Below the pieces are notes generated by a model, which worked only from the letters and a program-made list of their open reading frames with translations, ran no database searches and was not told the DNA's origin. Shown piece by piece: positions 34,133-48,399 of a DNA stretch of 64,000 nt (position 1 is its first letter; every line of letters starts with the position of its first letter). The stretch spans positions 124,001-188,000 of the forward strand of contig NZ_FOHI01000002.1 in NCBI RefSeq assembly GCF_900111585.1. The letters run 5' to 3'. Source of the DNA: Nitrosospira multiformis. Its GTDB lineage: Bacteria > Pseudomonadota > Gammaproteobacteria > Burkholderiales > Nitrosomonadaceae. The position numbers were made by a program, and so were the translations under genes.

Positions 34133-36985
34133 TCAATGACAAAGCGTTATGGGGCGCGGCTCTTCAATCGCATACCCTTGGGCATAGTCAACACCTATCT
34201 TTCGCAGCGCCTCAAGAAAAGACTCTTCCTCTACCCATTCCGCTATCGTTTGGATTTTCATTACATGGCCTATATGATTAATCGCCTCAACCATAGCATG
34301 GTCAATAGGATCACTGAGCATGCCCTTGATGAATGCTCCATCGATTTTTAAATAGTCTACAAGCAAGTGCTTGAGGTAAGTAAAGGAGGACATTCCGCTG
34401 CCAAAATCGTCAAGGGAGAAGCGACAGCCGAGTTCCTTTAGCTTGCGGATCAATGCGGCAGCCTGAGTAAGGTTTGCGATTGCCACAGTTTCCGTAATCT
34501 CGAAACAGATCCCGGCAGGATCAACCTGAGATTGCTTCAATTGGTCCACCACGAAATCGTATAAATGCTCATCGCAAATAGATGCGCCTGAGAGATTGAT
34601 AGTGCAGGTGTCTTTTGTGCCTTGTGAGCGATATGAAGCGTATTGGGCAAAGGCATTGGTGATTACCCATCTGTCGAGTTGAGGCATGAGGCCGTAGCGC
34701 TCCGCCGCGGGGATGAAGGCCATGGGAGGTACTAGCTCGCCATTTTCTCCTTTCATTCGCAGCAGTATCTCGTAGTGGTTAGCGCTTGAAGGTGCGGAAA
34801 GGGGCAATATTTTCTGTGAATACAGTACGAACCGCTGCTTGTCGAGAGCTTTGTGCAGGCGCTCCACCCATCCCATCTCGCCACGGCGTTTCTCGAGGTT
34901 CTTGTCATCGGAAGCATAGAGTTGAACACGGTTACGCCCCTTATCCTTGGCAAGAAAGCAAGCCGTGTCTGCCATACGTAAAACGTCCGAGAAAGTTTGC
35001 TCGCCACTGGAGAAAGTAGCCAGCCCGATGCTTATCCCAAGCGAGAACACCCGCTCTTCCCAGACGAAACGGAACTCCTGCACGGTTTGCCGCAGCACTT
35101 CAGCCACGCGAAATGCCGATCCCCTTGGACATCTTTCAAGCAATAAGCCGAATTCATCTCCTCCCAGGCGCGCCAAAGTATCATCCTTTCGCAACTTTGC
35201 TTGCAGGAGGCTGGTGAGTTGTTTCAGCAACTCATCCCCTGCAAGGTGACCACAAGTGTCGTTTACGATCTTGAATTGATCGAGATCAAGATAAAGCAAA
35301 GTATGCTCGTCAGCTCCTTTATCGTGCTCCAGGACCTGTTTCAGACGCCGCTCGAATTCATGCCTGTTGATCAGCCCCGTCAAGGCGTCATGCGTCGCCT
35401 GATAGCGCATTTCCATCGCCATCTTCTGTGCATGGCTGACATCGCGGAATACCAGCACGACACCGATAATTGAACCATTTTGGTCTCGAATGGGCGCGGC
35501 CGAGTCTTCGATCGGAAAGGTTTGACCGTCTCGCCGTATGAGCAGCGCATGTGAATTAAGACTTACGGTCTCCTTATTCCTTAAAACCCTTTCGGCTGGA
35601 CTAGATGCCAGCTCGTTGGTTTCTGCATGGATGATTTGAAATACGTCTTGAAGAGGCAAACCCTTTGCGTCATCGGAACTACACCCAGCCATGGCTTCCG
35701 CGACCGGATTCAGATAGGTAACGCTTCCTTCGGTATCCGTTGTGATAACGGCGTCACCAATACAGCTCAAGGTAACGCGCAGGAGTTCCTTTTCTTCAAA
35801 AAGCGCCTTTTCCGCTATTTCACGCTCAGTGAGATCCCGTCTGAGTTGAGTTTGGATTTCCTTAGTACGCTTGCGCTCGGTGATATCGCGGATGGCACTG
35901 GATACCAGGATTCCTTCTTCGGTTTCAATGGGACTAAGACTGATTTCAACAGGAAATTCAGTGCCATCGCGGCGGAGGCCGTAGAGCTCGAGTCCGATGC
36001 CCATTGGACGCGTGCGGGGTGCACGGAAAAAATCTTCCCGAAACCCGGGATGTTTTGAGCGGTAACGGGGTGGAATAAGCATCTCCATCTTTTTACCGAG
36101 CAACTGTTCTCGCTGGTAGTCAAACAATTTTTCGGTTTGGGAATTCACCAGCACGATTTCGCCATTGCGATTCACAATGACGATCGCATCGGGTGCCGCT
36201 TCCAGCAGTCCGCGAAATTTCTGCTCGGCTTTTTTTCGATCGCTGATATCGCGGATTGCACTTATGCTAAACCTGCCTTCATCCGTTTCAATGGGACTCA
36301 AGCTGATTTCCACTGGAAATTCGGGGCCGTCCTTGCGAAACCCGTATAGCTCCCAGTCGGCGGCGACCATTCGGATATGCGGATGGGTAAAGTAAGCTGT
36401 GCGTTCTCCCGAATGGAGGCCGCGCTTGCGAGGGGGCAGCAGCATTTCCACGGGCTGGCCGCGAAGTTCGTCTGCGCTATATCCGAACAGTTTCTCCGTT
36501 TGCGTGTTGATCAGGACTATCCGTCCTGTCGAGTTCACTATGACTATTCCATCTGGTATTGAATCGAGCAAATTGCCGAATTTGGTATTGATCAACTTGG
36601 CATCGCGCAACGCTTTGATATGCGTGATATCTGTACTTGTAATCAGGACGTAGCCGTCCTGGCGCTGATCCTGCGACAGGACTTTGAATGACATGTTTAC
36701 ATAGACCAGCAAGCCGTCTTTTTTGCGACATAAGATCTCATCCACTGAAGCCCTTGCCTCGTGCGTATTTCTCAGGCTCTGGTTGATCTTGGATCGATGA
36801 TCAGGAGCACCGACGAGTTCAGTAAGCCTCCTTTGCAAGGCTTCCGCCACCGTATGGCCAAATATCGATTGCGCGCCCTTGTTCCAATAAACGACAACGC
36901 CCTCGGCAGTGGTAACAATTGCGCCGCCGGGCATTTCATCAAGAACAAGTTTGCCAAAATCTGTTGCTATTACCTTCGGTTCCAT
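34133..36985 (-). CDS. PAS(x4)-GGDEF-EAL c-di-GMP enzyme
   Basis: A 950-residue cytoplasmic sensor with no membrane segment. Four PAS domains lie at about 8-125, 135-250, 258-375 and 395-515; the second and third are near-duplicates (both carry [12 protein letters not shown]). The diguanylate cyclase domain has an intact GGDEF at 608-612 ([13 protein letters not shown]). The EAL domain has EILLRM (Glu739), EITET, DDFGSG, KIDGAFI and AEWVEEE, so most catalytic acids are kept. The protein could make or break c-di-GMP. It points away from the chemosensory operon, with 554 bases between them that hold a strong dyad. PAS ligands cannot be told; redox, oxygen or NO sensing are all possible. Confidence 0.93.
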
Positions 36986-37539
36986 TCAGATTTACGAAAA
37001 ATAGGAAAGACTTTAAAAGGGAGAAGTCAATAGCTGCAAAAGATTATAGATGGCACGGAAATGGCTATTGTGCTGTTAATCATTCGCTGGCTTTCTATGC
37101 CAGCAGATTGGCTGACACTTACATCATGGCTTTGGCGTTAAAAGAGGTAAAGCTATTTGTACCTGTAAGATTTTACAGGTGCAAAAGTACTCATTCTGTA
37201 GTCTCATATGTTTATTAACTCACCGGAATACAGCAAGTATTTCTTTAAAAAAGCTGGCAGTGATAACTAGACATGCTGTTTCCAGCAATGCAGAGCCGAT
37301 AGTGAAAGCGGAATAATTCAATGTAACCTGGTTTTCGAGTTTTCTCGGCTTGTCACCCAGGTACCCGCGATAGAAGGGCGGGCAATACCGAAAATTCAAC
37401 TAACTCTTAGTGCGGGCTATGACTGCCCAGAAGAGCTAACCTGGTCTTGTCTGTCTTGGCATCTTATTCCTTTACTCCCACTCGGTGAGAAGATGGTGCT
37501 CGCTGAGGCGCTCCATCACTATAACAATTTATATCAATC
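36986..37539. other. divergent regulatory region of the signalling island
   Basis: 554 bases between the PAS-GGDEF-EAL gene and the first cheW, with no supported gene. It should contain both promoters. The notable element is the dyad at 37157-37184. I could not pick out a good -35/-10 pair for either side. Confidence 0.45.
37157..37184. promoter_or_regulatory. dyad-symmetric possible operator
   Basis: ACCTGTAA (37161-37168) and TTACAGGT (37173-37180) form a perfect 8-base inverted repeat around GATT. The symmetry extends to TTG/CAA with one mismatch, so 11 of 12 positions pair. It is a plausible dimer-binding site between divergent c-di-GMP genes. It has no T run, so a terminator is unlikely. 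Confidence 0.45.
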
Positions 37540-38016
37540 ATGAAGTTTGATACCACAGTAAGGGCCGGAAATCATTATTTGATTTTTTTCCTGGATGATC
37601 AGCGCTACTCCTTGCATTTGCCTGCGGTGGAGAGTGTCGCACGCATGGTTTATATAACACCGCTACCCGGAGCGCCGGAAATTGTGCTCGGTGTAGTTAA
37701 TCTTCGCGGCAAAGTTGTCCCTATCGTGAACATCCGGCAACGGTTTGATCTCCCAAAGCGCGAAATTTTGCTGACTGACTGGCTGATTTTCGCTCATACG
37801 ACGACCCGTCTTGTGGGGCTGGCGGTAAATTCAGTGATGGGAGTTGAGGAATGTCTGGAACAATGTGTGGTTCCAACAGCTGAATTCTTTCCTCCCCTCA
37901 AGTACTTAAAGGGAGTCATCAAATTTCAGGATGGATTGATCCTTATCCAGAATCTTGGCGAATTCCTTTCATTAGAAGAAGAAAAGTCCTTGGATTTGGC
38001 GCTTAGTACCTCATAG
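37540..38016 (+). CDS. cheW: CheW-type coupling protein (WspB-like)
   Basis: CheW proteins join receptors to the CheA kinase. The 158-residue protein is one CheW domain: FFLDDQRYSLHLPAVESV, ITPLPGAPEIVLGVVNLRGKVVPIVNI (the classical core) and LIFAHTTTRLVGLAVNSVMGV. It is the first gene of the chemosensory operon, with cheR starting 3 bases after its stop. In Wsp systems this place is taken by WspB. No other domain is present. Confidence 0.92.
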   Translation: MKFDTTVRAGNHYLIFFLDDQRYSLHLPAVESVARMVYITPLPGAPEIVLGVVNLRGKVVPIVNIRQRFDLPKREILLTDWLIFAHTTTRLVGLAVNSVMGVEECLEQCVVPTAEFFPPLKYLKGVIKFQDGLILIQNLGEFLSLEEEKSLDLALSTS

Positions 38017-38019
38017 GGC

Positions 38020-39525
38020 ATGCAAATCACCCTTCCTCATATGCTGGTCTCGCAGCTAAGTGATTTAATAGCGATGAAGATGGGCTTGTATTATCCGCAA
38101 AAGCGCTGGGGTGACCTCGAGCGCGCAATTGCGGCTGCCGCACCCGAGCTTGACATGCCGGACACCGAAACAGCTGCCCGTCACCTCCTTTCCACTTCCC
38201 TGACCCGCAGACAGATCGAAATACTTGCTTGCCACCTTACTGTCGGGGAGACCTACTTCTTCCGGGAGCAGAAATGCCTGGACGTACTTGAACAAAGTAT
38301 TCTTCCGGAACTGATACGGAAATGCAAAGAAAACAATCGCCAACTGCGGATTTGGAGTGCGGGCTGTTGCACGGGCGAAGAACCCTATTCGATTGCCATA
38401 CTCCTTGATCGATTGTTCAAGAAGCATGGGGGGGAATGGAATGCGACAATCCTTGCAACAGACATCAATCCGGTATTCCTGGATCGAGCAGCCGAAGGTT
38501 TATATAGAGAGTGGGCTTTTCGGGGGACCCCGGGTTGGATTAAAGAGCGTTACTTTAAACGGAAAAAAAACGGCCTATTCGAGATAGTGCCGCATATCCG
38601 TAAAAGAGTAACGTTCTCCAATCTAAATCTGGCCGAGGATGTGTATGCATCGCAGGCCAATGGCACCCGCGTCGTGGACATCATCTTCTGTCGAAATGTG
38701 CTGATGTATTTCAACCCCCAGGCAGTTAAAAGGATTGGACAGGGCTTTCATCGATCTCTAGTCGACTACGGATGGCTCATTGTGAGTCCCGTGGAAATGT
38801 CTAGCGACTCGTTTCCTCAGTTCCGACTTCATACCGTTTCCGGAACCGGCCTCTATCAGAAGATTGACAGTCACGACGTGCATGGAAATGGCAATTACTT
38901 CTCCTTTGGTCCGTCATCGGATGCCTTATACGAGGTAACTTCAGCTTCACCCTCCAGTCTGCAGGCCTGGGAAACGGCCCATTCGCTCGAAAGTATGCAA
39001 CCGCAAATATTGCCGGTGGCATCAAGCTCTTTCACTCAGCTAACAAGCGTGCAAGACGTTGCAAGCCAACCAGCGAATCAAGAGTGGTCCAATACGCTTT
39101 ATCACGAAGCCCGTCGCTATGCCGATCGAGGCGACCTCACCAAGGCTGTAAAGCAGTGCGAGGAAGCAATTGCCGCTAACAAACTGAACCCTGCGGCTTA
39201 CTATCTCCTGGCAACGATTCACCAGGAGCTGGGGCAGGCCAAGGAAGCAATGCGGTACCTGATGAATACGCTATATCTTGATCCTGATCTTGTGCTTGCC
39301 CATTTTGCTTTGGGTAACCTCTGCCTGACGCAGGGCAAAAGCCGGGAAGCAGAACGTCATTTTGACAATGCACTATCGCTGTTGAATGGATATTCATCCA
39401 ACGACATTCTCCCGGACTCAGGCGGCCTGACCGCCGGAGATCTCGCTCATTTCATTACCTCTATAAGAATATGTGATTCACTCAATCATCAGGAAATAAA
39501 GAGTAGAGCATCACATGACAACTAG
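38020..39525 (+). CDS. cheR: CheR methyltransferase with C-terminal TPR repeats (WspC-like)
   Basis: CheR methylates glutamates on the receptor using SAM. The 501-residue protein has the CheR domain at about 10-275: TVGETYFFRE, RIWSAGCCTGEEPYSIAILL (SAM site), ILATDINPVFLDRA and IIFCRNVLMYF. A linker of about 80 residues leads to TPR repeats (about 355-455, AAYYLLATIHQELGQAKEAM and following). CheR-TPR fusions are typical of Wsp/Frz-like arrays rather than flagellar chemotaxis, and the TPR may control docking. It overlaps the next cheW by 11 bases. Confidence 0.94.
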   Translation: MQITLPHMLVSQLSDLIAMKMGLYYPQKRWGDLERAIAAAAPELDMPDTETAARHLLSTSLTRRQIEILACHLTVGETYFFREQKCLDVLEQSILPELIRKCKENNRQLRIWSAGCCTGEEPYSIAILLDRLFKKHGGEWNATILATDINPVFLDRAAEGLYREWAFRGTPGWIKERYFKRKKNGLFEIVPHIRKRVTFSNLNLAEDVYASQANGTRVVDIIFCRNVLMYFNPQAVKRIGQGFHRSLVDYGWLIVSPVEMSSDSFPQFRLHTVSGTGLYQKIDSHDVHGNGNYFSFGPSSDALYEVTSASPSSLQAWETAHSLESMQPQILPVASSSFTQLTSVQDVASQPANQEWSNTLYHEARRYADRGDLTKAVKQCEEAIAANKLNPAAYYLLATIHQELGQAKEAMRYLMNTLYLDPDLVLAHFALGNLCLTQGKSREAERHFDNALSLLNGYSSNDILPDSGGLTAGDLAHFITSIRICDSLNHQEIKSRASHDN

Positions 39526-40153
39526 AACCTTAGGGTTTCAAAAAAGGAAAGTGGCTTCCAGAAATTCTCTCGAGCTCGAGCAGAACCAGAATTCTCCTCG
39601 TGCAACAGTGGAGAGCACTTGGATGCCTTCCAATGAAAAAATTCAGCAGATCTTGCAATTGAGGGCATTGGCCCTGGCTCAGGAGTTACCGGCTCAAGAG
39701 GTACGGAATGAAGACATTGAAATCGTGGAATTTATTCTTGGTTGTGAACGTTACGCCCTCGAATCGTGCTATGTCACTCAGGTCGCCGAGGTTGAGGACA
39801 TCACATCGCTGCCCTGCACCCCTGATTTTATTCGCGGCATTGTTACCCTGCGCGGGGAGATCCTGCCGGTCATTGACCTGAAGAAGTTTTTCGAAGTGCC
39901 GGAGAAGGAGTTGCGTGGACGCAACAAAGTTATCGTACTGCAGTCGGGAAAAATGACTTTCAGCATTCTGGTGGACGAAGTCCTTGGAGCCCGGTCTATC
40001 CCGGCAACCGACATTCAGTCATCTTTACCCACTCTTATGGGCATTCGTAAGAAATACCTCAAGGGAATAACCTCGGAGCGACTAGTGGTTCTTGATGCGG
40101 AAAATCTTCTCATGGATGAGAGCATCGTTGTAGATGAGCAAGTAGCCGAGTAG
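39515..40153 (+). CDS. cheW: second CheW-type coupling protein with N-terminal extension (WspD-like)
   Basis: A 212-residue CheW protein with about 70 residues ahead of the CheW fold, as in WspD. The domain (about 72-205) has EFILGCERYALESCYVTQV, FIRGIVTLRGEILPVIDLKKFF and FSILVDEVLGARSI. The N-terminal stretch is charged and probably flexible or helical (LQLRALALAQEL). Two CheWs in one array allow two coupling roles. The MCP gene begins 64 bases later with its own AAAGGA ribosome site. Confidence 0.92.
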   Translation: MTTRTLGFQKRKVASRNSLELEQNQNSPRATVESTWMPSNEKIQQILQLRALALAQELPAQEVRNEDIEIVEFILGCERYALESCYVTQVAEVEDITSLPCTPDFIRGIVTLRGEILPVIDLKKFFEVPEKELRGRNKVIVLQSGKMTFSILVDEVLGARSIPATDIQSSLPTLMGIRKKYLKGITSERLVVLDAENLLMDESIVVDEQVAE

Positions 40154-40217
40154 AGAAGTATCGAAATGGGTGAAGACACTGAATTTAAATGACGAAACGA
40201 AGTTTTGAAAGGACAGC

Positions 40218-41711
40218 ATGACCATCAGTGAAAAGATAATTGGAGGGTATTCCGTCATACTGGCGCTTCTTGCACTCTCTACCGCTGTGGCATTCTATGC
40301 ACTTAGCCAGACACAGGCGGCCTACGATCATTTCCTTCGCGTAGACGAGCGGCTGATGGAAAGTGCGAATGAATTGCGGATTGCGGGGTTTGCGCAACAA
40401 ACCTACGTTCGGGGTATTCTGCTTTATCCAGACCTGCAGAAGACCAACCAGGTGCTCCTCCAAGACAATGATCGCCAGTTCAAGCAAATCCTCGAAAAAA
40501 TTCGACAGCTAATGAGTGGAAACAAGGGGGATAGTCTACTCAACGAGCTCGAATCCCTGCACCAGCAATTGGACGGGGCCCAGCAACAAGCCGTCCGGCT
40601 CTCGTTTGATCAAAAACCCGAGGAAGCGCTCGCCTTCGTGACTAACACATTCCGCCCGCTCAGCCTTGCATTTATAGATAAGGCCAAGCGTTTCTATGAA
40701 CAACAATCTGCAATTCTGGAAAGTAGAAAAATTGAAGCCGCGGATAAAGTGAGCTCTTATGCCACTACATTGGTGTCCGTTTCTTTATTTACTGTTTTAG
40801 TTGGACTAACAATCGGCATTCGCCTGAGCAGGGCGATTACCCGACAACTCCGGGAGAACATCGTCCAACTTGCGTCGTCTTCAGCAGAGATTCTTTCCAC
40901 CACTTCCCAGGTTGCCGCTGGCGCAGCCGAAACCGCAGCCGCAGTAAGCGAGACAACCGCCACCGTGGAAGAGGTCAAGCAAACCGCATTGACTACGAGC
41001 CAGAAAGCTAAATATGTATCAGACAATGCGCAGAAAGTTTCCAATATCTCCGAGGCTGGACGCAAATCGGTGGGGGAGGTTATTAGTGGAATGAATCGGA
41101 TCCAGGAGCAGATGGAATCCATAGCTGAGAGCATTATGCAGCTCTCCAAGCAGGGGCATGCCATCGGCGAGATCATTGCCACAGTCAACGACTTGGCTGA
41201 ACAATCCAATTTGTTGGCCGTAAATGCCGCTATTGAGGCGACGCGGGCTGGGGAACAAGGTAAGAGTTTTGGCGTAGTTGCTCGGGAGATAAGAAGTCTG
41301 GCGGATCAATCCAGACAAGCCACTGCCCAGGTGCGAAACATTCTGGGTGATATTCAGAAAGCGACTAATGCTGCGGTACTCGCCACTGAGCAAGGCAATA
41401 AAGCGGTGGAGGCGGGGGTCAGGCAATCCACCGAGACGGGTGAAGCAATCCGCCTACTATCCACCAGCATCAGTGAGGCAGCGCAAGCAGCTACCCAAAT
41501 TGCGGCATCAAGCAAGCAACAAATGGTCGGCATGGACCAGGTGGCGATGGCCATGACTAACATCCAGCAGGCGAGCGAACAGAACGTGGCAGGTACCAGG
41601 CAGGCAGAATCAGCGGCACAAGGCTTGTATGAGATGGGGAATAAATTGAGTGTCCTCGTAGGCAGCAAGAAAGACTATTTCGTAAAAGAAGTGGAAAAAG
41701 CCCATGCCTGA
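40218..41711 (+). CDS. methyl-accepting chemotaxis protein without HAMP (WspA-like)
   Basis: The 497-residue receptor of the array. Membrane helices lie at about 7-28 and 188-208. Between them is a helical periplasmic region of the four-helix-bundle sensor type (about 30-185). Right after the second helix come TRQLRENIVQLASSSAEIL and methylation-helix heptads (AETAAAVSETTATVEEV), so I see no room for a HAMP domain. The hairpin tip that touches CheA/CheW is EQSNLLAVNAAIEATRAGEQG (near residue 335). The gene overlaps cheA by 8 bases. The ligand is unknown; the Wsp model suggests a surface-contact or envelope cue. Confidence 0.93.
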   Translation: MTISEKIIGGYSVILALLALSTAVAFYALSQTQAAYDHFLRVDERLMESANELRIAGFAQQTYVRGILLYPDLQKTNQVLLQDNDRQFKQILEKIRQLMSGNKGDSLLNELESLHQQLDGAQQQAVRLSFDQKPEEALAFVTNTFRPLSLAFIDKAKRFYEQQSAILESRKIEAADKVSSYATTLVSVSLFTVLVGLTIGIRLSRAITRQLRENIVQLASSSAEILSTTSQVAAGAAETAAAVSETTATVEEVKQTALTTSQKAKYVSDNAQKVSNISEAGRKSVGEVISGMNRIQEQMESIAESIMQLSKQGHAIGEIIATVNDLAEQSNLLAVNAAIEATRAGEQGKSFGVVAREIRSLADQSRQATAQVRNILGDIQKATNAAVLATEQGNKAVEAGVRQSTETGEAIRLLSTSISEAAQAATQIAASSKQQMVGMDQVAMAMTNIQQASEQNVAGTRQAESAAQGLYEMGNKLSVLVGSKKDYFVKEVEKAHA

Positions 41712-44058
41712 CAAAAGGGATGTACTTCTGCAAAGGCTCCTTGCAATGTTTCGCATCGAGGCAGAGGCCCACCTGAAGGATATATCGTCGGGACTGCTCG
41801 CCCTGGAGGGAAAACCTGTAGATACCCCGGCGTTCGATATCATTGAGAACATGTTGCGGTGCGCACACAGTCTCAAAGGTGCAGCACGAGCAGTCAATTT
41901 TGCCCAAGTCGAGGAGACCTGCCGTTCTCTGGAAAATGTATTCTCCGCACTGAAAGATAAAAGCCTTGCCGTATCGTCATCGCTCATTGATCGCCTGCTT
42001 GGGACGGTCGATGCTCTAGGGACGCTCGTTTCAGGAGAGGGCAGCATGGCTGAGCGGCAAAAGCCGTTGTTGACTACAATAACCCGACAGCTCGATGAAA
42101 CGCTGAAAAGTCCCATAAAAGAAGGGCGTACGGGCTCCTCCTTATCGCAGGCCGCATCACCTTTATCTTTGCTTCCCCCCGACGAATCATCCGTAGCCCG
42201 TGCCGATGTAAGTACACATTTGCGAACCTCTACTTCGAGCCATGCATCTGCAACAATCAGAGTGCCTACCGTAAAACTTGAAAAGGTTCTGCGTCAGGTT
42301 GAGGAATTGTTGCTGCCGTGCCTGACAGCGCGACAACGGGCCAAGGAGCTAGGCGAAATCACCGCGACACTTGCCACATGGAAGAAGCAGCGCCTGCAAA
42401 TCCAGTCGGCGGTCCGCATTATTGATCGCGAGTTGACATCCAGCCTCAAGGATAGCCCCTTCCGGGGGCAACATGGGCTCCCCAAACTGCTCAAATACCT
42501 GGATGGGGAGCCGCTTCAAATGAAAGCGCTTGAGGAGCGGCTAGTGAGATTGCAGCGGACTATCGAACAAGACCAACGCGCACTTGCTGGGATGACCGAT
42601 TGCCTGATTCAGGACGTCAAAGAAATGCAATTACTGCCTTTCTCGACGCTGCTGGATATTCTGCCCCGATTCTCCCGCGAGCTGGCCCGCGAACAGGGCA
42701 AGAGCCTGGAGCTGGTGGTCAGTGGCGGCGAGGTGGAAATTGATCGGCATATTTTGGAAGAGATGAAAGACCCTCTGATCCATCTGGTACGTAATTGCAT
42801 CGACCACGGTATTGAGCAGCCCGCCGCCCGGTTAGCTAAAGGTAAGCCTTCGTCGGGAAGAATCACCTTCGCATGCTCGCAAAGCGATAGCGGTAAGGCT
42901 GAGATACGTGTAGCCGATGATGGGGGCGGAATCAATATCGGTAAATTGAAAGCTGCCGCACGCAAGCTTGGCGTAATGTCTGAGGAGGAGATGGAGCAAC
43001 TGGGTGAGTCGGAATTGCTTGCGCTTATTTTTAGATCTGGTGTAACCACCAGTCCCCTCATCACCGATATCTCTGGACGCGGGCTGGGACTCGCGATTGT
43101 ACGTGAAAAGGTTGAAGCTTTGGGCGGCAGCATCAAGGTCAAATCAAGTACTGATACCGGAACTGCTTTCCATATCTTACTGCCGTTAACGCTAACAAAT
43201 ACCCGGGGAGTTCTGGTTCATGCCGGAGGACAGCTTTTTGTTATTCCTTCAAGCAGCGTTGAGCGAGTAGTCCGAATCGCCAAAAACGAAATTCAGACAG
43301 TGAAAAATCGAGAAACCATTCTGGTAGATGAACAACCTGTTTCTCTGGTCAGGTTAAATGACATACTGGAACTAGCTCGCAATTCGGCAGAAATGGAACC
43401 CACGCACTATTTGCGAGGGATCGTTCTCAGTTCAGGCCTTGGTCGTGTTGTATTTCTCGTGGAAGAGGTTCTCGGGGAGCAAGAGGTGGTAATAAAAGCA
43501 CTCCTCCGGCCATTGAAGCGGGTAAGAAACGTCGCAGGTGTATGCATGCTGGGAACCGGGCGAGTGGTCCCGGTGCTTAACGTACCTGACCTGTTGAAAT
43601 CGGCTGTGAAAGCATCCTCGGCTACATTCATCTCTACTCAGGACTCATCGGCTGAGAAGCAGGGAACATCAAGCAAGCACTCTATTTTAGTGGTGGACGA
43701 TTCCATCACTGCTCGGACGCTGCTCAAACATATCCTGGAATCGGCAGGTTATAGTGTGACTACAGCTGTGGATGGAGTGGAGGGTTATACCGCCCTTAAA
43801 ACGGGCGCCTACAGCCTGGTAGTCTCTGATGTTGAAATGCCGCGAATGGACGGCTTTGCCCTGACAGCCAAGATACGTGCTGACAAGCAGTTGGCGGCGC
43901 TGCCGGTGGTATTGGTAACGGCATTGGATTCGCGTGATCACCGGGAGCGAGGCATCGATGTGGGAGCGAATGCATATATCGTGAAGAGCCGCTTTGACCA
44001 AAGCAATTTGCTGGAAGCGACGCGACGCCTGATCAGCATCAGCAGCATTAAGGCGTGA
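41704..44058 (+). CDS. cheA: hybrid CheA histidine kinase with C-terminal receiver (WspE-like)
   Basis: A 784-residue CheA that phosphorylates the receiver of the output protein and CheB. The Hpt domain (about 10-110) has the phosphorylated His55 in CAHSLKGAARA. After a linker, the kinase ATPase domain has the N-box HLVRNCIDHGIE, DDGGGI (G1) and SGRGLGLAIV (G2). A CheW-like domain follows (about 500-640), then a receiver domain (about 660-782) with Asp709 in SDVEMPRMDG. Hybrid CheA-REC is the WspE architecture, where the receiver acts as a phosphate sink or brake. No separate cheY lies in the operon. Confidence 0.95.
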   Translation: MPDKRDVLLQRLLAMFRIEAEAHLKDISSGLLALEGKPVDTPAFDIIENMLRCAHSLKGAARAVNFAQVEETCRSLENVFSALKDKSLAVSSSLIDRLLGTVDALGTLVSGEGSMAERQKPLLTTITRQLDETLKSPIKEGRTGSSLSQAASPLSLLPPDESSVARADVSTHLRTSTSSHASATIRVPTVKLEKVLRQVEELLLPCLTARQRAKELGEITATLATWKKQRLQIQSAVRIIDRELTSSLKDSPFRGQHGLPKLLKYLDGEPLQMKALEERLVRLQRTIEQDQRALAGMTDCLIQDVKEMQLLPFSTLLDILPRFSRELAREQGKSLELVVSGGEVEIDRHILEEMKDPLIHLVRNCIDHGIEQPAARLAKGKPSSGRITFACSQSDSGKAEIRVADDGGGINIGKLKAAARKLGVMSEEEMEQLGESELLALIFRSGVTTSPLITDISGRGLGLAIVREKVEALGGSIKVKSSTDTGTAFHILLPLTLTNTRGVLVHAGGQLFVIPSSSVERVVRIAKNEIQTVKNRETILVDEQPVSLVRLNDILELARNSAEMEPTHYLRGIVLSSGLGRVVFLVEEVLGEQEVVIKALLRPLKRVRNVAGVCMLGTGRVVPVLNVPDLLKSAVKASSATFISTQDSSAEKQGTSSKHSILVVDDSITARTLLKHILESAGYSVTTAVDGVEGYTALKTGAYSLVVSDVEMPRMDGFALTAKIRADKQLAALPVVLVTALDSRDHRERGIDVGANAYIVKSRFDQSNLLEATRRLISISSIKA

Positions 44059-44068
44059 ATTCCCTCCC

Positions 44069-45136
44069 ATGATAAACGTCCTGGTAGTGGAAGATTCACC
44101 GGTAGTGCGAGAGTTCCTCATTTACATACTCAATTCCGATCCTGATATCACTGTTATTGCGACCGCCGGTGACGGAGAAGAAGCAATCGATGCCTTGCGC
44201 AGCCATCGGCCTGACGTAATCACAATGGATATTCACATGCCGAAGCTGAATGGGGTGAAGGCCACACAGCTGATCATGGAGACACAGCCGACTCCCATTG
44301 TCATCGTGAGCGGCAGTACGGATCCGGCAGAGGTTGGGACAACATTTGATGCGATCGATGCAGGGGCACTGGCAGTGCTCCCGCGGCCGGCAGGCATCGG
44401 CCATCCGGATCACGAGGCGACCGCTCGGAAGATGATAGAGGTCGTAAAACTGATGTCAGAAGTAAAGGTGGTTCGTCGCTGGGCGCGCATGCGAGAAGCT
44501 TCTCCGGCCTCACTTTCTGTACGCGCCCCTCTGCTTAACCGTGTGGCGCAAACAAGAATTGTCGTTGTGGGTGCTTCAACGGGTGGCCCGCCTGCACTCG
44601 AGGCGATTCTTTCGTCACTCCCAAAGCATTTTCCTGTGCCTATTCTAATCGTTCAGCATATGACTGCGGGATTCATGGAAGGATTTGTCCAATGGCTAAA
44701 GAACTCGTCCAATCTTCCCATTCATATTGCAAGGCAGGGTGAGTTGCCCCTGCCGGGGCATGTTTATATAGCACCCGATGAATGCCAGATGAAGGTAGAG
44801 AATCGAGGGGAGATCGTTTTGACCAAGGACGAGCCAGAGTATGGATCAAAACCCTCAATTTCATATCTTTTTAGGTCGGTTGCCAGAGTCTACGGTCATG
44901 ATGCCGTTGCTGGCCTATTGACGGGGATGGGCCGTGATGGGGCTGACGAGTTACGTCTTCTGAAGGAGAAAGGCGCGATTACTTTCGCACAAGACAAGGA
45001 AAGTTCGGTCGTCCACGGTATGGCGGGCGAGGCGATCAGGTTAGGTGCGGCGACCATGGTTTTGCCTCTGGAAAAGATTGCCGCAGCACTAACGAATCTG
45101 GTGGCCGAACGAGGAGAAACTAAGCTTGGCGCATGA
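44069..45136 (+). CDS. cheB: CheB methylesterase response regulator (WspF-like)
   Basis: CheB removes receptor methyl groups and resets the array. The 355-residue protein has a receiver domain (1-125, Asp54 in MDIHMPKLNG). A methylesterase domain (about 160-350) follows with Ser170 in VVGASTGGPP, the His of LIVQHM and the Asp of GMGRDGADEL. All three catalytic residues are present. Loss of the equivalent WspF in Pseudomonas locks the pathway on. It overlaps the output gene by 11 bases. Confidence 0.95.
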   Translation: MINVLVVEDSPVVREFLIYILNSDPDITVIATAGDGEEAIDALRSHRPDVITMDIHMPKLNGVKATQLIMETQPTPIVIVSGSTDPAEVGTTFDAIDAGALAVLPRPAGIGHPDHEATARKMIEVVKLMSEVKVVRRWARMREASPASLSVRAPLLNRVAQTRIVVVGASTGGPPALEAILSSLPKHFPVPILIVQHMTAGFMEGFVQWLKNSSNLPIHIARQGELPLPGHVYIAPDECQMKVENRGEIVLTKDEPEYGSKPSISYLFRSVARVYGHDAVAGLLTGMGRDGADELRLLKEKGAITFAQDKESSVVHGMAGEAIRLGAATMVLPLEKIAAALTNLVAERGETKLGA

Positions 45137-48068
45137 TATTTCAACCCACAATGCCCGGAAAGTCGAGATTCTCATCGCAGAGGACAGTCCCACGCAAGCG
45201 GAAAAACTGAAGTATCTGCTGGAGGAAAACGGCTACAAAGTTACCACTGCAGGTGATGGCAAGCAGGCCCTCTCGAGGGCGCGGCAGTGCAATCCGACAT
45301 TGATTATCAGTGATGTGATGATGCCGGAGATGAATGGGTTTGCGCTATGCAGTGAAATCAAGCGGGACGCACAACTCAAGAAGATTCCAGTGATCCTGCT
45401 TACCTCGCTGGCGGATGTCAAGGATATCATCCAGGGATTGGAATCGGGGGCCGACAATTTTATCCGCAAGCCATATGACGACAGATATCTTCTTGATCGT
45501 ATTGACTATCTGCTGATGAGCCATGAGCTGCGCAAGAGTCAGAAGATGCAAATGGGAATGCAGATTTATCTGGGCGGGCAAAAACATTTCATCACCAGTG
45601 AGCGGCAGCAGATCGTGGATTTATTGATTTCAGTTTATGAGGATGCGGTTCGCCTCAACGCTGAACTGAATACGCGACAACTTGAGCTGACGCACTCGAA
45701 TCGCTTGCTCAATGGACTGTATCGAATGGCGGAAGGCTTGAACCAGGCAGCAACCGAGTGCGAGGTCAGCGAAAAAGCGCTGGAGTACGCCATGATGTTG
45801 CCTGGAGTCCAGGCGGGATGGCTTTATTTATGGAATACCGATGGTCTGAGTTTAGCAGGCTCACGAAACGTACCCGCATCAGTAAGTGCTGATGGCTTGA
45901 ACATATCATGCAATTGCCTGCGCCTTTTGCTCGCCGGGGAACTCGGCAATACCCCTAAAATTTTAAACTGCGAGCGCCTCTTCTCAAGCGGAGGCAAGGG
46001 TTCTTGCCACCATATCACCATACCGATGTGGAGTGGCAGCAAGAACCAGGGCGTGATGAATCTCCTGAACTTGGAACAGGATGAGTTCAGGGAGAATGAG
46101 TTGGACACATTCTACGGGATTGGGCAGCAGGTAAGCGTTGCGCTGGAGCGTGCCCGATTGCATGAACATATGGAAAAGTTGGTGGGGGAGCGTACTGCGG
46201 CGTTAACAGCGGAGATCGCTCAGCGCAAGGAATATGAAGCGAGAGTAGTCCGGCTCAACCGCTTATATAGCGTGTTAAGTGGTATCAATACAGCCATTGT
46301 GCGTGTCCGTGAAATACAGGAGCTTTTCAATGAGGCATGCCGTATTGCAGTCGTTCACGGTGGATTCGCTTTCGCTTGGATCGGAATGCTGGGGGGAAAT
46401 ACGAGAATAATTGCACCAGTGGCTAAGATGGGGCAAGGAAATGATGAGCTGTTCCAACTCAACCTATCTCTGATGAGTGCGCCGGAAGGAGCTCCGCTGG
46501 TAGAGGATTTAATCACACATTTCAAGCCGTTCATTTGCAATGATCTCATTGCCGATAAGCGCATGGAGGGTTTGCATAACGCAGCGCTGGCTCACGATTA
46601 TCTTTCCATGGCGATCTTGCCCCTGGTTCTCGATGGGCAACTCGTCGGCACTCTGACTCTCTATACTCCCGAGACAGGGTTTTTCGACGAGGAGGAAATT
46701 GCTTTGCTAGTAGAAATGGCAGGCGATATTTCGTTTGCAATGGATCACCTGAAAAAAGAGGAGCGCATCAATTATCTGGCTTTCTTCGACGCTGTGACCG
46801 AGCTCCCGAACCGGGCGTTATTTCTAGACCGGGTTAATCAGCGGATCAAGATGGTTTCTTCCGGTCACGAGATGCTTTCCGTAATTGTCCTGGACATCGA
46901 ACGGTTCAGCAGTATTAATGAATCGTTCGGCCATGGGGCGGGCGACAGTCTACTCCGCCAACTTGCAAAGCGGCTGAAGCAACTGCTTTCAGAAGCAGAC
47001 ATTCTGGCCCATCTTTCCGCCGATTATTTCGCTATCGCCAGAAAACATGAAGAGGAAAGCATCGACATCGTCCATATGCTAGAAAAGCTTCTGTTCGAGG
47101 TTCAGAACGAGCCCTTTTTAATTAATGGGCAGGAACTGTGGGTTTCCGCCAGGGCGGGAGCTTCGTTCTTTCCTAGCGACGGCCTGGATACTGATACGCT
47201 CTTGAGAAATGCTGAAACAGCGCTAAAGAAGGCCAAGCATTCTTCCGACAAGCATTTGTTTTATGCTCCCGAATTTCATGCACGGGTTAAAGAAAAACTG
47301 AAACTCGAGATCAAGCTGCGTCAGGCGTTGGAGCAGGAACAATTGGTGCTGTACTACCAACCCAAAGTTGATTTGAAGAGTGGGCAAATAAGCGGACTCG
47401 AGGCACTGATGCGCTGGCACGATCCGGAAAGCGCCATGGTACTTTCACCGCTGCACTTCATTCCCTTACTTGAAGAAACGGGAATGATTCTTGACGCGGG
47501 CCGGTGGGCGCTGCGCAAAGCGATATCGGATGCAAATAAATGGAAAGCCATGAGTTTAAATCCACCGAGAATTGCTATCAATGTTTCTCCCGTTCAGTTA
47601 CGGCAGAAGGATTTTGTCGATATGGTGGCAAATGTGGTAAGTGACGCGGGAGATCAAGCTGCGTTCCAGCTTGAGATCACGGAAAGTGTAATCATGCACG
47701 ATATCAAAGCCAATATCGAGAAGCTCAATCTCATCCAGGATATGGGTATCGAGCTTGCGATAGACGATTTCGGTACTGGTTATTCTTCGCTCAGTTATAT
47801 CGCCAAATTGCCCGTCAATGTCTTGAAAATTGATCGCGCTTTCATCAGCGATATGAATATCAATCCAGACAATCTCACCATTGTTTCTGGAATCATATCC
47901 CTGGCACATTCGTTGCATTTGCGTGTTGTTGCCGAGGGGGTGGAAACGGTTGAGCAAGCCGAGCTTTTGCGAAGCCTCGAATGTGAGGAGATGCAGGGCT
48001 ATCTCTTTAGTCCCGCCGTCACAGCGACCAAGATAATAGAGTTTCTACACCAGAAGAAATCTCTTTAA
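45126..48068 (+). CDS. REC-GAF-GAF-GGDEF(degenerate)-EAL output response regulator
   Basis: A 980-residue response regulator in the WspR position, but with a different output. Translation starts at TTG 45126 with GAGGAG upstream. The receiver (about 14-130) has Asp63 in SDVMMPEMNG. Two GAF-like domains follow (about 195-345 and 375-540). The GGDEF domain has SADYF at 631-635 where the active sequence should be, so cyclase activity is unlikely; it may still bind GTP. The EAL domain is complete: EALMRW (759-761 EAL), EITESV, DDFGTGYSS, KIDRAFI and AEGVETVEQ. The predicted output is therefore phospho-controlled c-di-GMP hydrolysis. No membrane helix is seen. Confidence 0.93.
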   Translation: MAHDISTHNARKVEILIAEDSPTQAEKLKYLLEENGYKVTTAGDGKQALSRARQCNPTLIISDVMMPEMNGFALCSEIKRDAQLKKIPVILLTSLADVKDIIQGLESGADNFIRKPYDDRYLLDRIDYLLMSHELRKSQKMQMGMQIYLGGQKHFITSERQQIVDLLISVYEDAVRLNAELNTRQLELTHSNRLLNGLYRMAEGLNQAATECEVSEKALEYAMMLPGVQAGWLYLWNTDGLSLAGSRNVPASVSADGLNISCNCLRLLLAGELGNTPKILNCERLFSSGGKGSCHHITIPMWSGSKNQGVMNLLNLEQDEFRENELDTFYGIGQQVSVALERARLHEHMEKLVGERTAALTAEIAQRKEYEARVVRLNRLYSVLSGINTAIVRVREIQELFNEACRIAVVHGGFAFAWIGMLGGNTRIIAPVAKMGQGNDELFQLNLSLMSAPEGAPLVEDLITHFKPFICNDLIADKRMEGLHNAALAHDYLSMAILPLVLDGQLVGTLTLYTPETGFFDEEEIALLVEMAGDISFAMDHLKKEERINYLAFFDAVTELPNRALFLDRVNQRIKMVSSGHEMLSVIVLDIERFSSINESFGHGAGDSLLRQLAKRLKQLLSEADILAHLSADYFAIARKHEEESIDIVHMLEKLLFEVQNEPFLINGQELWVSARAGASFFPSDGLDTDTLLRNAETALKKAKHSSDKHLFYAPEFHARVKEKLKLEIKLRQALEQEQLVLYYQPKVDLKSGQISGLEALMRWHDPESAMVLSPLHFIPLLEETGMILDAGRWALRKAISDANKWKAMSLNPPRIAINVSPVQLRQKDFVDMVANVVSDAGDQAAFQLEITESVIMHDIKANIEKLNLIQDMGIELAIDDFGTGYSSLSYIAKLPVNVLKIDRAFISDMNINPDNLTIVSGIISLAHSLHLRVVAEGVETVEQAELLRSLECEEMQGYLFSPAVTATKIIEFLHQKKSL

Positions 48069-48169: not shown

Positions 48170-48399
48170 TTGATGAGAGCCAGGACGTCTTCCTCATTAT
48201 CCAGATTTATGCAAAAGCTGGAGAGAAACGAATTTGTTCTCTACTATCAGCCGCAGATGGATAGCGCGGGATTATGGGAGCCGAAGCGCCTGTGCGATGG
48301 CAACATCCTCGGCGCGGCCTTTTGCTTCCCACCGAGTTCATTCCCCAAGCCGAGGAAACTGGGCAGATTCTTCCTTTAGGGAATTCTGACGTCCAATGA
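48170..48399 (+). pseudogene. frameshifted fragment of an EAL-domain gene
   Basis: One frame reads [14 protein letters not shown], the start of an EAL domain. From about 48274 a second frame continues [14 protein letters not shown], then [19 protein letters not shown]. Joined, they make the first 60 residues of an EAL domain with EAL changed to EAP and a frameshift near 48270. It is not a recent copy of the intact EAL gene just upstream, because the residues differ throughout. The rest of the gene is gone. Upstream, 48069-48169 shows only a 7-base hairpin at 48078-48103 without a T run. Confidence 0.8.

Follow-up and report, generated by a model that had tools for sequence, protein, structure and literature searches.

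How does a chemosensory array act when the enzyme at its end looks built to destroy, not to make, the second messenger cyclic di-GMP (c-di-GMP)? The question is raised by a seven-gene operon at positions 37540 to 48068 of the window, a 64,000-nucleotide stretch of a Nitrosospira multiformis genome (contig NZ_FOHI01000002.1, positions 124,001 to 188,000). Among arrays that act on c-di-GMP, the best known, Wsp, makes the messenger, whereas the array in the lineage of the window appears wired to destroy it. We propose, with a probability of roughly 0.6, that the operon encodes an array of the alternative cellular functions (ACF) class, that its phosphodiesterase output is switched on by the kinase CheA and that it controls swimming versus settling through c-di-GMP. 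The setting is simple, with a single receptor, a single kinase, a single linked output and a single PilZ protein found, and makes two questions testable: whether a chemosensory array can do without CheY in controlling a flagellum, and how the same receiver module serves interchangeable catalytic heads. It also touches the choice of ammonia oxidizers between swimming and surface growth.

Pfam searches identified seven co-directional genes on the forward strand. These are a first CheW, in the position of WspB (37540-38016; PF01584, 2.3e-23); a CheR methyltransferase with C-terminal TPR repeats (38020-39525; PF01739, 2.4e-47, and TPR families); a second CheW (39515-40153; PF01584, 6.6e-28); a methyl-accepting chemotaxis protein (MCP) with a four-helix-bundle sensor, 4HB_MCP_1 (40218-41711; PF00015, 8e-34; PF12729, 7.9e-9); CheA, with the order Hpt-HATPase-CheW-receiver (REC) (41704-44058); a CheB methylesterase with a receiver (44069-45136; PF01339, 2.9e-59; PF00072, 2.1e-20); and the output protein, REC-GAF-GAF-GGDEF-EAL (45126-48068). 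The spacings are 3, -11, 64, -8, 10 and -11 bp, with three overlaps and a largest gap of 64 bp. An earlier note, made from the letters alone, had described this tight packing and the absence of cheY, cheD and flagellar genes from the operon; both descriptions hold, as the domain search found none of these genes among the seven.

The output protein starts at a TTG (45126) that lies nine bases downstream of an AGGAG and is the first start codon past the preceding stop of the frame. Its receiver (45168-45503), in which D20, D63, T93 and K115 are intact, is followed by GAF1 (45651-46181; supported by an alignment of relatives, a fold model and a fold search), GAF2 (46308-46745; PF13185, 1.3e-26), a GGDEF domain (46779-47246; PF00990, 3.1e-32) and an EAL domain (47316-48014; PF00563, 1.4e-70). 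All EAL catalytic residues checked are present (E759, L761, N819, E850, E853, D880, D881, K901, E937 and Q957). In the GGDEF domain, the A-site reads SADYF (residues 631-635; 47016-47030), not GG[DE]EF, and a serine (SEAD) stands at the position of the arginine of the I-site; the roles of the EAL, GGDEF and I-site motifs are established. With intact EAL residues beside a degenerate GGDEF site, which is how the earlier note had read the protein, the output should be a c-di-GMP phosphodiesterase, an assignment that its sequence supports well, and we propose that its GGDEF half makes no c-di-GMP any more.

Comparison with relatives is consistent with this assignment. We aligned 29 distinct REC-GAF-GAF-GGDEF-EAL proteins, other families included (32 were found and three identical ones dropped). 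The checked EAL residues were invariant in all 29, and none had GG[DE]EF; GGDQF in locus L244 came closest. Thus, a recent loss of cyclase activity within Nitrosospira was rejected. Two Pseudomonas-type loci (L279, L295) have GGDEF-EAL outputs that keep GGDEF. The EAL domain was the best conserved part, with a mean pairwise identity of 0.73 and 77 of 233 columns invariant, compared with 0.67 for REC, 0.62 for GGDEF, 0.57 for GAF2 and 0.53 for GAF1. Solved structures of GGDEF-EAL proteins, including that of DosP (1.6e-66), also matched the GGDEF-EAL part. DosP shares the GGDEF-EAL tandem; it differs in that it carries a haem sensor and is not known to have a receiver or to belong to an array.

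The operon is conserved as a unit. CheA of the window type (at least 55% identity) was found in 18 of the 23 Nitrosospira genomes searched, with identities of 96% in N. multiformis Nl12, 73% in Nitrosospira sp. Nsp11 and 62% in Nsp14. Since all 18 carriers keep the seven genes in the same order on one strand, the arrangement is not chance. Genes flanking the operon vary between species, so it behaves as a unit; in one carrier (G107), CheB is split over two frames. Across 17 of the carriers, pairwise distances of CheA, CheR, CheB, MCP and output intercorrelated at 0.885-0.977 (r 0.93 for CheA versus output), while those of FliM correlated with the operon proteins at 0.70-0.78 (0.74 with CheA, 0.70 with the output). 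His55 of the CheA Hpt domain, the checked kinase motifs and Asp709 of its receiver were conserved in all 18 carriers, as were S170, H197 and D290 of CheB, which we take to be its active-site residues.

The receiver of the output appears to track the presence of an array. E19, D20, D63, T or S93 and K115 were intact in all 26 outputs encoded near a CheA. The three relatives with an altered receiver (E-D to G-S, K to R) were all proteins of genus g4, and no che genes were seen near them in the stretches read, one of which is a contig of only 5.3 kb; F-like (flagellar-type) CheA occurs elsewhere in two of the three genomes. Because the receiver is intact near CheA and altered in proteins without che genes nearby, the intact receiver is linked to the array, and sequence comparison supports well the coupling of array and output. 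The genus-g4 loci (L143, L144 and L145), which belong to the same family, each have an EAL gene after the altered-receiver gene, and the DD motif of this EAL gene is changed to CG.

In the mechanism that we propose, the MCP, the two CheW proteins and CheA would assemble the array, and CheR-TPR and CheB would set its adaptation. Three receivers would take phosphate from phosphorylated CheA: that of CheB, that at the C-terminus of CheA itself, which may serve as a phosphate sink, and that of the output protein. Phosphorylation of the last most likely turns the EAL domain on, so that the kinase-active array would lower c-di-GMP, while the GAF domains may add a cytoplasmic input. Lower c-di-GMP would in turn release YcgR. 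Since flagellar genes and a YcgR-type brake are present and a CheY orthologue was not found, the likeliest physiological result would be a choice between swimming and settling through c-di-GMP, not turning. That the array lowers c-di-GMP on signal, as the earlier note put it, depends on two signs that lie beyond the sequence, that of ligand on CheA and that of phosphate on the EAL domain.

The output could instead be ruled mainly by ligands of its GAF domains, with phosphorylation tuning it, localising it or turning it off, in which case kinase activity would raise c-di-GMP. Two GAF domains are present, and C262, C264 and C282 of GAF1 were each found in 27 of the 29 relatives (H296 in 28). Set against this, every output encoded near a CheA keeps the receiver residues, the three genus-g4 proteins being the only ones with changes, and we consider this alternative unlikely. 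The cysteines (C-x-C-x17-C, 45909-45971), also seen in six sister kinases, are a possible metal or redox site. GAF1 was predicted as a GAF fold with a predicted local distance difference test (pLDDT) score of 84.7 and matched many generic GAF domains; for an iron-sulphur or haem sensor, the fold search gave only these generic folds and the literature search no supporting paper. For the first 211 residues of the MCP, the predicted structure was a bundle of four helices (mean pLDDT 88). Its nearest solved fold was the malate/citrate receptor MCP2201, with NarQ, Vc1313 and Tsr lower down amid unrelated helical proteins; no match in this fold search fell below 1e-3.

The preferred reading, control of swimming versus settling by a CheA-activated phosphodiesterase, draws on the rest of the genome. 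All three CheW domains lie within the operon, and the single MCP match (PF00015) is the MCP of the operon. H-kinase_dim, the marker of flagellar-type (F) CheA, had no match in the genome, and no F-type CheA was found. The genome contains two Flagellin_N matches, FliM and a long flagellar cluster, whose other genes were named by eye; by eye, no che genes were seen in this cluster. Reference Nitrosospira genomes carry a mean of 52 motility genes, according to the accessible text of PMC9239080. The only PilZ protein found was of the YcgR type (PilZN, 7.6e-32, and PilZ).

The array might also steer the flagellum through a CheY-like protein that our searches did not recognise, the phosphodiesterase being a secondary branch. 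The genome has 40 receiver matches, and FliM keeps an N-terminal motif, FLSREEVDALL, that we assume to resemble the CheY-binding motif. However, none of the eight receivers in open frames of less than 175 amino acids exceeds 30% identity to the CheY proteins of genomes G094, G109 and G110, the only receivers at the operon are those of CheA, CheB and the output, and the only receiver match in the flagellar stretch read is a LuxR-type regulator. We regard a hidden CheY as improbable.

Several points weigh against the reading that we prefer. The FliM motif and the eight small receivers leave room for a CheY-like target of the kind just described. The genome contains 17 EAL matches, fragments included, so that one phosphodiesterase may act only locally. 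Sigma-28 and sigma-70 scans gave no promoter evidence linking the operon to flagellar genes. One paper's statement on Nitrosospira sp. APG3, which does not separate array classes, fits a single-array picture poorly. The three altered receivers form one clade and count as one event, and one of them lies on the 5.3-kb contig. Among the best solved matches of the GGDEF-EAL part is 5m3c (1.2e-90), which is labelled a diguanylate cyclase. Finally, phosphate could inhibit the output instead of activating it. What the sequence shows directly are the parts, their conservation, the intact residues, the single array and its lineage; phosphotransfer, the phosphodiesterase activity and its sign, the phosphate sink and the link to YcgR are inferred.

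Within the genus, window-type and F arrays seldom occur together. Strong H-kinase_dim matches (below 1e-18) occurred in only four of the 23 genomes (G094, G108, G109 and G110); weak matches (1.7e-5 and above) fell in the CheA of the window-type array itself. Seventeen genomes carry the window-type array only, three the F array only, one both (G109) and two neither (G095 and G101), and FliM is present in 22 of the 23. The exclusion gave a Fisher p of 0.021 with kinship ignored; placed on the FliM tree, there were too few independent pairs for significance. Close relatives differ in array (G113 versus G094, G114 versus G110, and G100 versus G101). We regard the mutual exclusion as a pattern, not proof. 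In G095 and G101, FliM was present and CheA of either class was not found.

The F che genes of G109 and G110 occupy the interval from fliC to a LuxR-type regulator, with gaps of 12,055 and 10,888 bp. The same interval spans 495 bp in the window genome and 469-3,803 bp in 13 of the 19 genomes without an F array, with no F che gene there at 50% identity or more; the comparison covers these 13 beside the F genomes G094, G109 and G110, five other non-F genomes gave no measurement, and G111 and G108 lie outside it. In G094, the gap is 498 bp and the F operon lies elsewhere nearby. Thus, excision of a che operon from one fixed flagellar site holds only partly. In genome G000 (C15:297812-299664, L007), the LuxR-type regulator and a PAS-HisKA_3 kinase adjoin flagellin in the flagellar cluster, and the two genes also lie near fliC in most relatives with a readable stretch.

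We determined the class of the array from a phylogeny built on the kinase cores of CheA proteins (51 hand-picked rows). F rows, E. coli included, and ChpA rows formed separate groups (each 100/100), and the CheA of the window fell in a 30-row ACF clade with support of 100/97. Six Wsp-order rows formed a clade of their own (100/100), apart from it. This clade is anchored by a single tested output, that of L226, whose best match among solved proteins was 3bre (2.6e-108), presumably WspR of P. aeruginosa; entries labelled WspR followed at 8.1e-50 and 5.8e-47. Because the tree contains no named WspE, has an uncertain root and includes some long branches, the separation from Wsp is strong but not final.

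The operon is well supported as an ACF-class array. Its CheA lies outside the flagellar and type IV pilus (Tfp) classes and its output is a multidomain response regulator, the distinctive ACF output according to the accessible text of PMC3447774. It has both CheR-TPR and a CheA with a C-terminal receiver, which the accessible texts of PMC3447774 and PMC10782961 give as usual for ACF, not exclusive to it. With CheA outside the F clade, no H-kinase_dim match and no cheY in the operon, the flagellar class does not fit, and the flagellar placement that the earlier note had named as a refutation did not occur. Of the assignment in that note to a Wsp/ACF class, the ACF part stands and Wsp itself is not supported. 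The gene order that the note called shuffled does have the MCP fourth; however, we rejected this as a novelty, the same MCP position being found in Azospirillum lipoferum and at many ACF loci.

The Wsp system of Pseudomonas (WspA-F, WspR) is similar in parts, with a 4HB-sensor MCP, two CheW proteins, CheR-TPR, CheA-REC, CheB and a receiver-fused c-di-GMP enzyme, and differs in that WspR is a cyclase and the MCP comes first. A true Wsp system with WspR exchanged for a phosphodiesterase, its sign thereby reversed, is very unlikely despite the shared gene set, since the CheA belongs to another clade, the tested Wsp-order output matches WspR structures, the MCP is fourth and Wsp sets, in the accessible text of PMC8552884, show wspA-F synteny, each of 794 clusters having WspR or WspH. 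With its CheA outside the Wsp-order clade, the operon, whose sign the earlier note called reversed compared with known Wsp, gives no support to a Wsp ancestor with such a reversal; kinases are the commonest outputs among its nearest named relatives.

This last point comes from a survey, with home-made profiles, of the gene after CheB in the 80 nearest named CheA relatives, 18 of which were placed in the tree. The gene was visible in 49: 24 histidine kinases, 10 EAL proteins (three from Nitrosospira), one GGDEF protein, eight receiver-only proteins and six unassigned ones, which may hide domains because the profiles are home-made. The remaining 31 had no CheB detected downstream of CheA (15), no gene past CheB within the stretch (10) or no recoverable CheA frame (six). 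Sister operons (a Polaromonas metagenome-assembled genome (MAG), Dongia, Bacteroidota and Chloroflexota MAGs) share the CheA clade and, where visible, a similar gene order, and differ in a REC(-GAF)-histidine kinase output, with a kinase head where the window has GGDEF-EAL. A Rugosibacter MAG (L235), a Burkholderiales MAG (L236), a Hydrogenophilales MAG (L238), G455 and G354 have REC-GAF-GAF-GGDEF-EAL after CheB, as in the window; the outputs of G455 and G354 are 60% identical to that of the window over the full length. G455 (L212) differs in having two MCP genes and tandem outputs after CheB, a phosphodiesterase version and a REC-GAF-GAF-kinase version. In the CheA tree, betaproteobacterial operons are joined by L242, whose title, a Klebsiella pneumoniae MAG, is probably a mislabel.

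In seven kinases, the REC-GAF1 region, some 360-370 residues, was 49-57% identical to that of the window output (six with CxC...C), and many more share its receiver and linker at 42-57% identity. Since the seven share the REC-GAF1 front, the phosphodiesterase looks like a head swap; the simplest history would be a single receiver module that fits its CheA and has been joined now to a kinase head, now to a GGDEF-EAL head. We suggest only tentatively, at well below even odds, that in most Nitrosospira a CheY-based flagellar array gave way to one of the ACF class, which would use c-di-GMP to steer the same flagellum, via the CheA-activated phosphodiesterase and YcgR. If true, this would be taxis or kinesis without CheY, arising from a kinase-to-phosphodiesterase head swap on a conserved REC-GAF regulator.

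A more distant ACF operon occurs in six genomes of another genus of the family (g3, probably Nitrosomonas). Its CheA is 33-35% identical to that of the window, and the three placed in the tree fell outside the clade of the window. In five of the six, a REC-HisKA-HATPase-REC-Hpt kinase follows CheB directly or past one small frame (three of the kinases were assigned by Pfam); in G052, a REC-EAL gene comes next.

As annotation, ACF arrays with phosphodiesterase-like outputs are already on record: clusters with CheR-TPR in the accessible text of PMC3447774 include some 20 GGDEF, one EAL and two GGDEF+EAL receiver regulators. These clusters resemble the operon in class and parts; that source is a survey only, has no "Nitroso" in its main text and, as far as accessible, is silent on single arrays in flagellated genomes. 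PMC8846402 places c-di-GMP-modulating arrays in class ACF or Tfp, and its accessible text names no phosphodiesterase output. No experimentally studied array with such an output surfaced in our literature searches, most subscription papers being outside their reach, and targeted searches covering little full text turned up no described example in nitrifiers, in line with the earlier note. The parts of the array are thus ordinary. What is unusual, and well supported, is that an array with a phosphodiesterase-type output is the only one found in a genome with flagellar genes; the combination with a YcgR-type brake, and with no F CheA or CheY orthologue found, is new.

Scans of noncoding signals added little. 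Sigma-28 matches with at most three mismatches numbered 60 in the window, compared with a mean of 43.7 in shuffled sequences (none of 100 shuffles reached 60, the largest being 59). They spread over the whole window, none had fewer than two mismatches, and the single match between the operon and the preceding gene, at 37014, had three. As matches of this quality are window-wide, we do not claim a sigma-28 link to the flagellar regulon. Sigma-70 matches (7 versus 10.5 in shuffles) and terminators (11 versus 12.2) showed no excess.

Both sides of the operon carry further c-di-GMP-related sequence. Downstream, before an SDR gene, a frame of 69 codons holds an EAL match of 38 positions that stays under the Pfam cut-off (48268-48381, forward strand) and is probably a remnant of another EAL gene. 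Upstream, a PAS-GGDEF-EAL gene with four PAS matches (34133-36985, reverse strand) diverges from the operon; its GGDEF site is intact (RLGGDEF) and its EAL motif reads EIL. Among the 18 carriers, it adjoins the operon only in the window, G098 and G097, and it is a possible opposing enzyme to the output of the operon.

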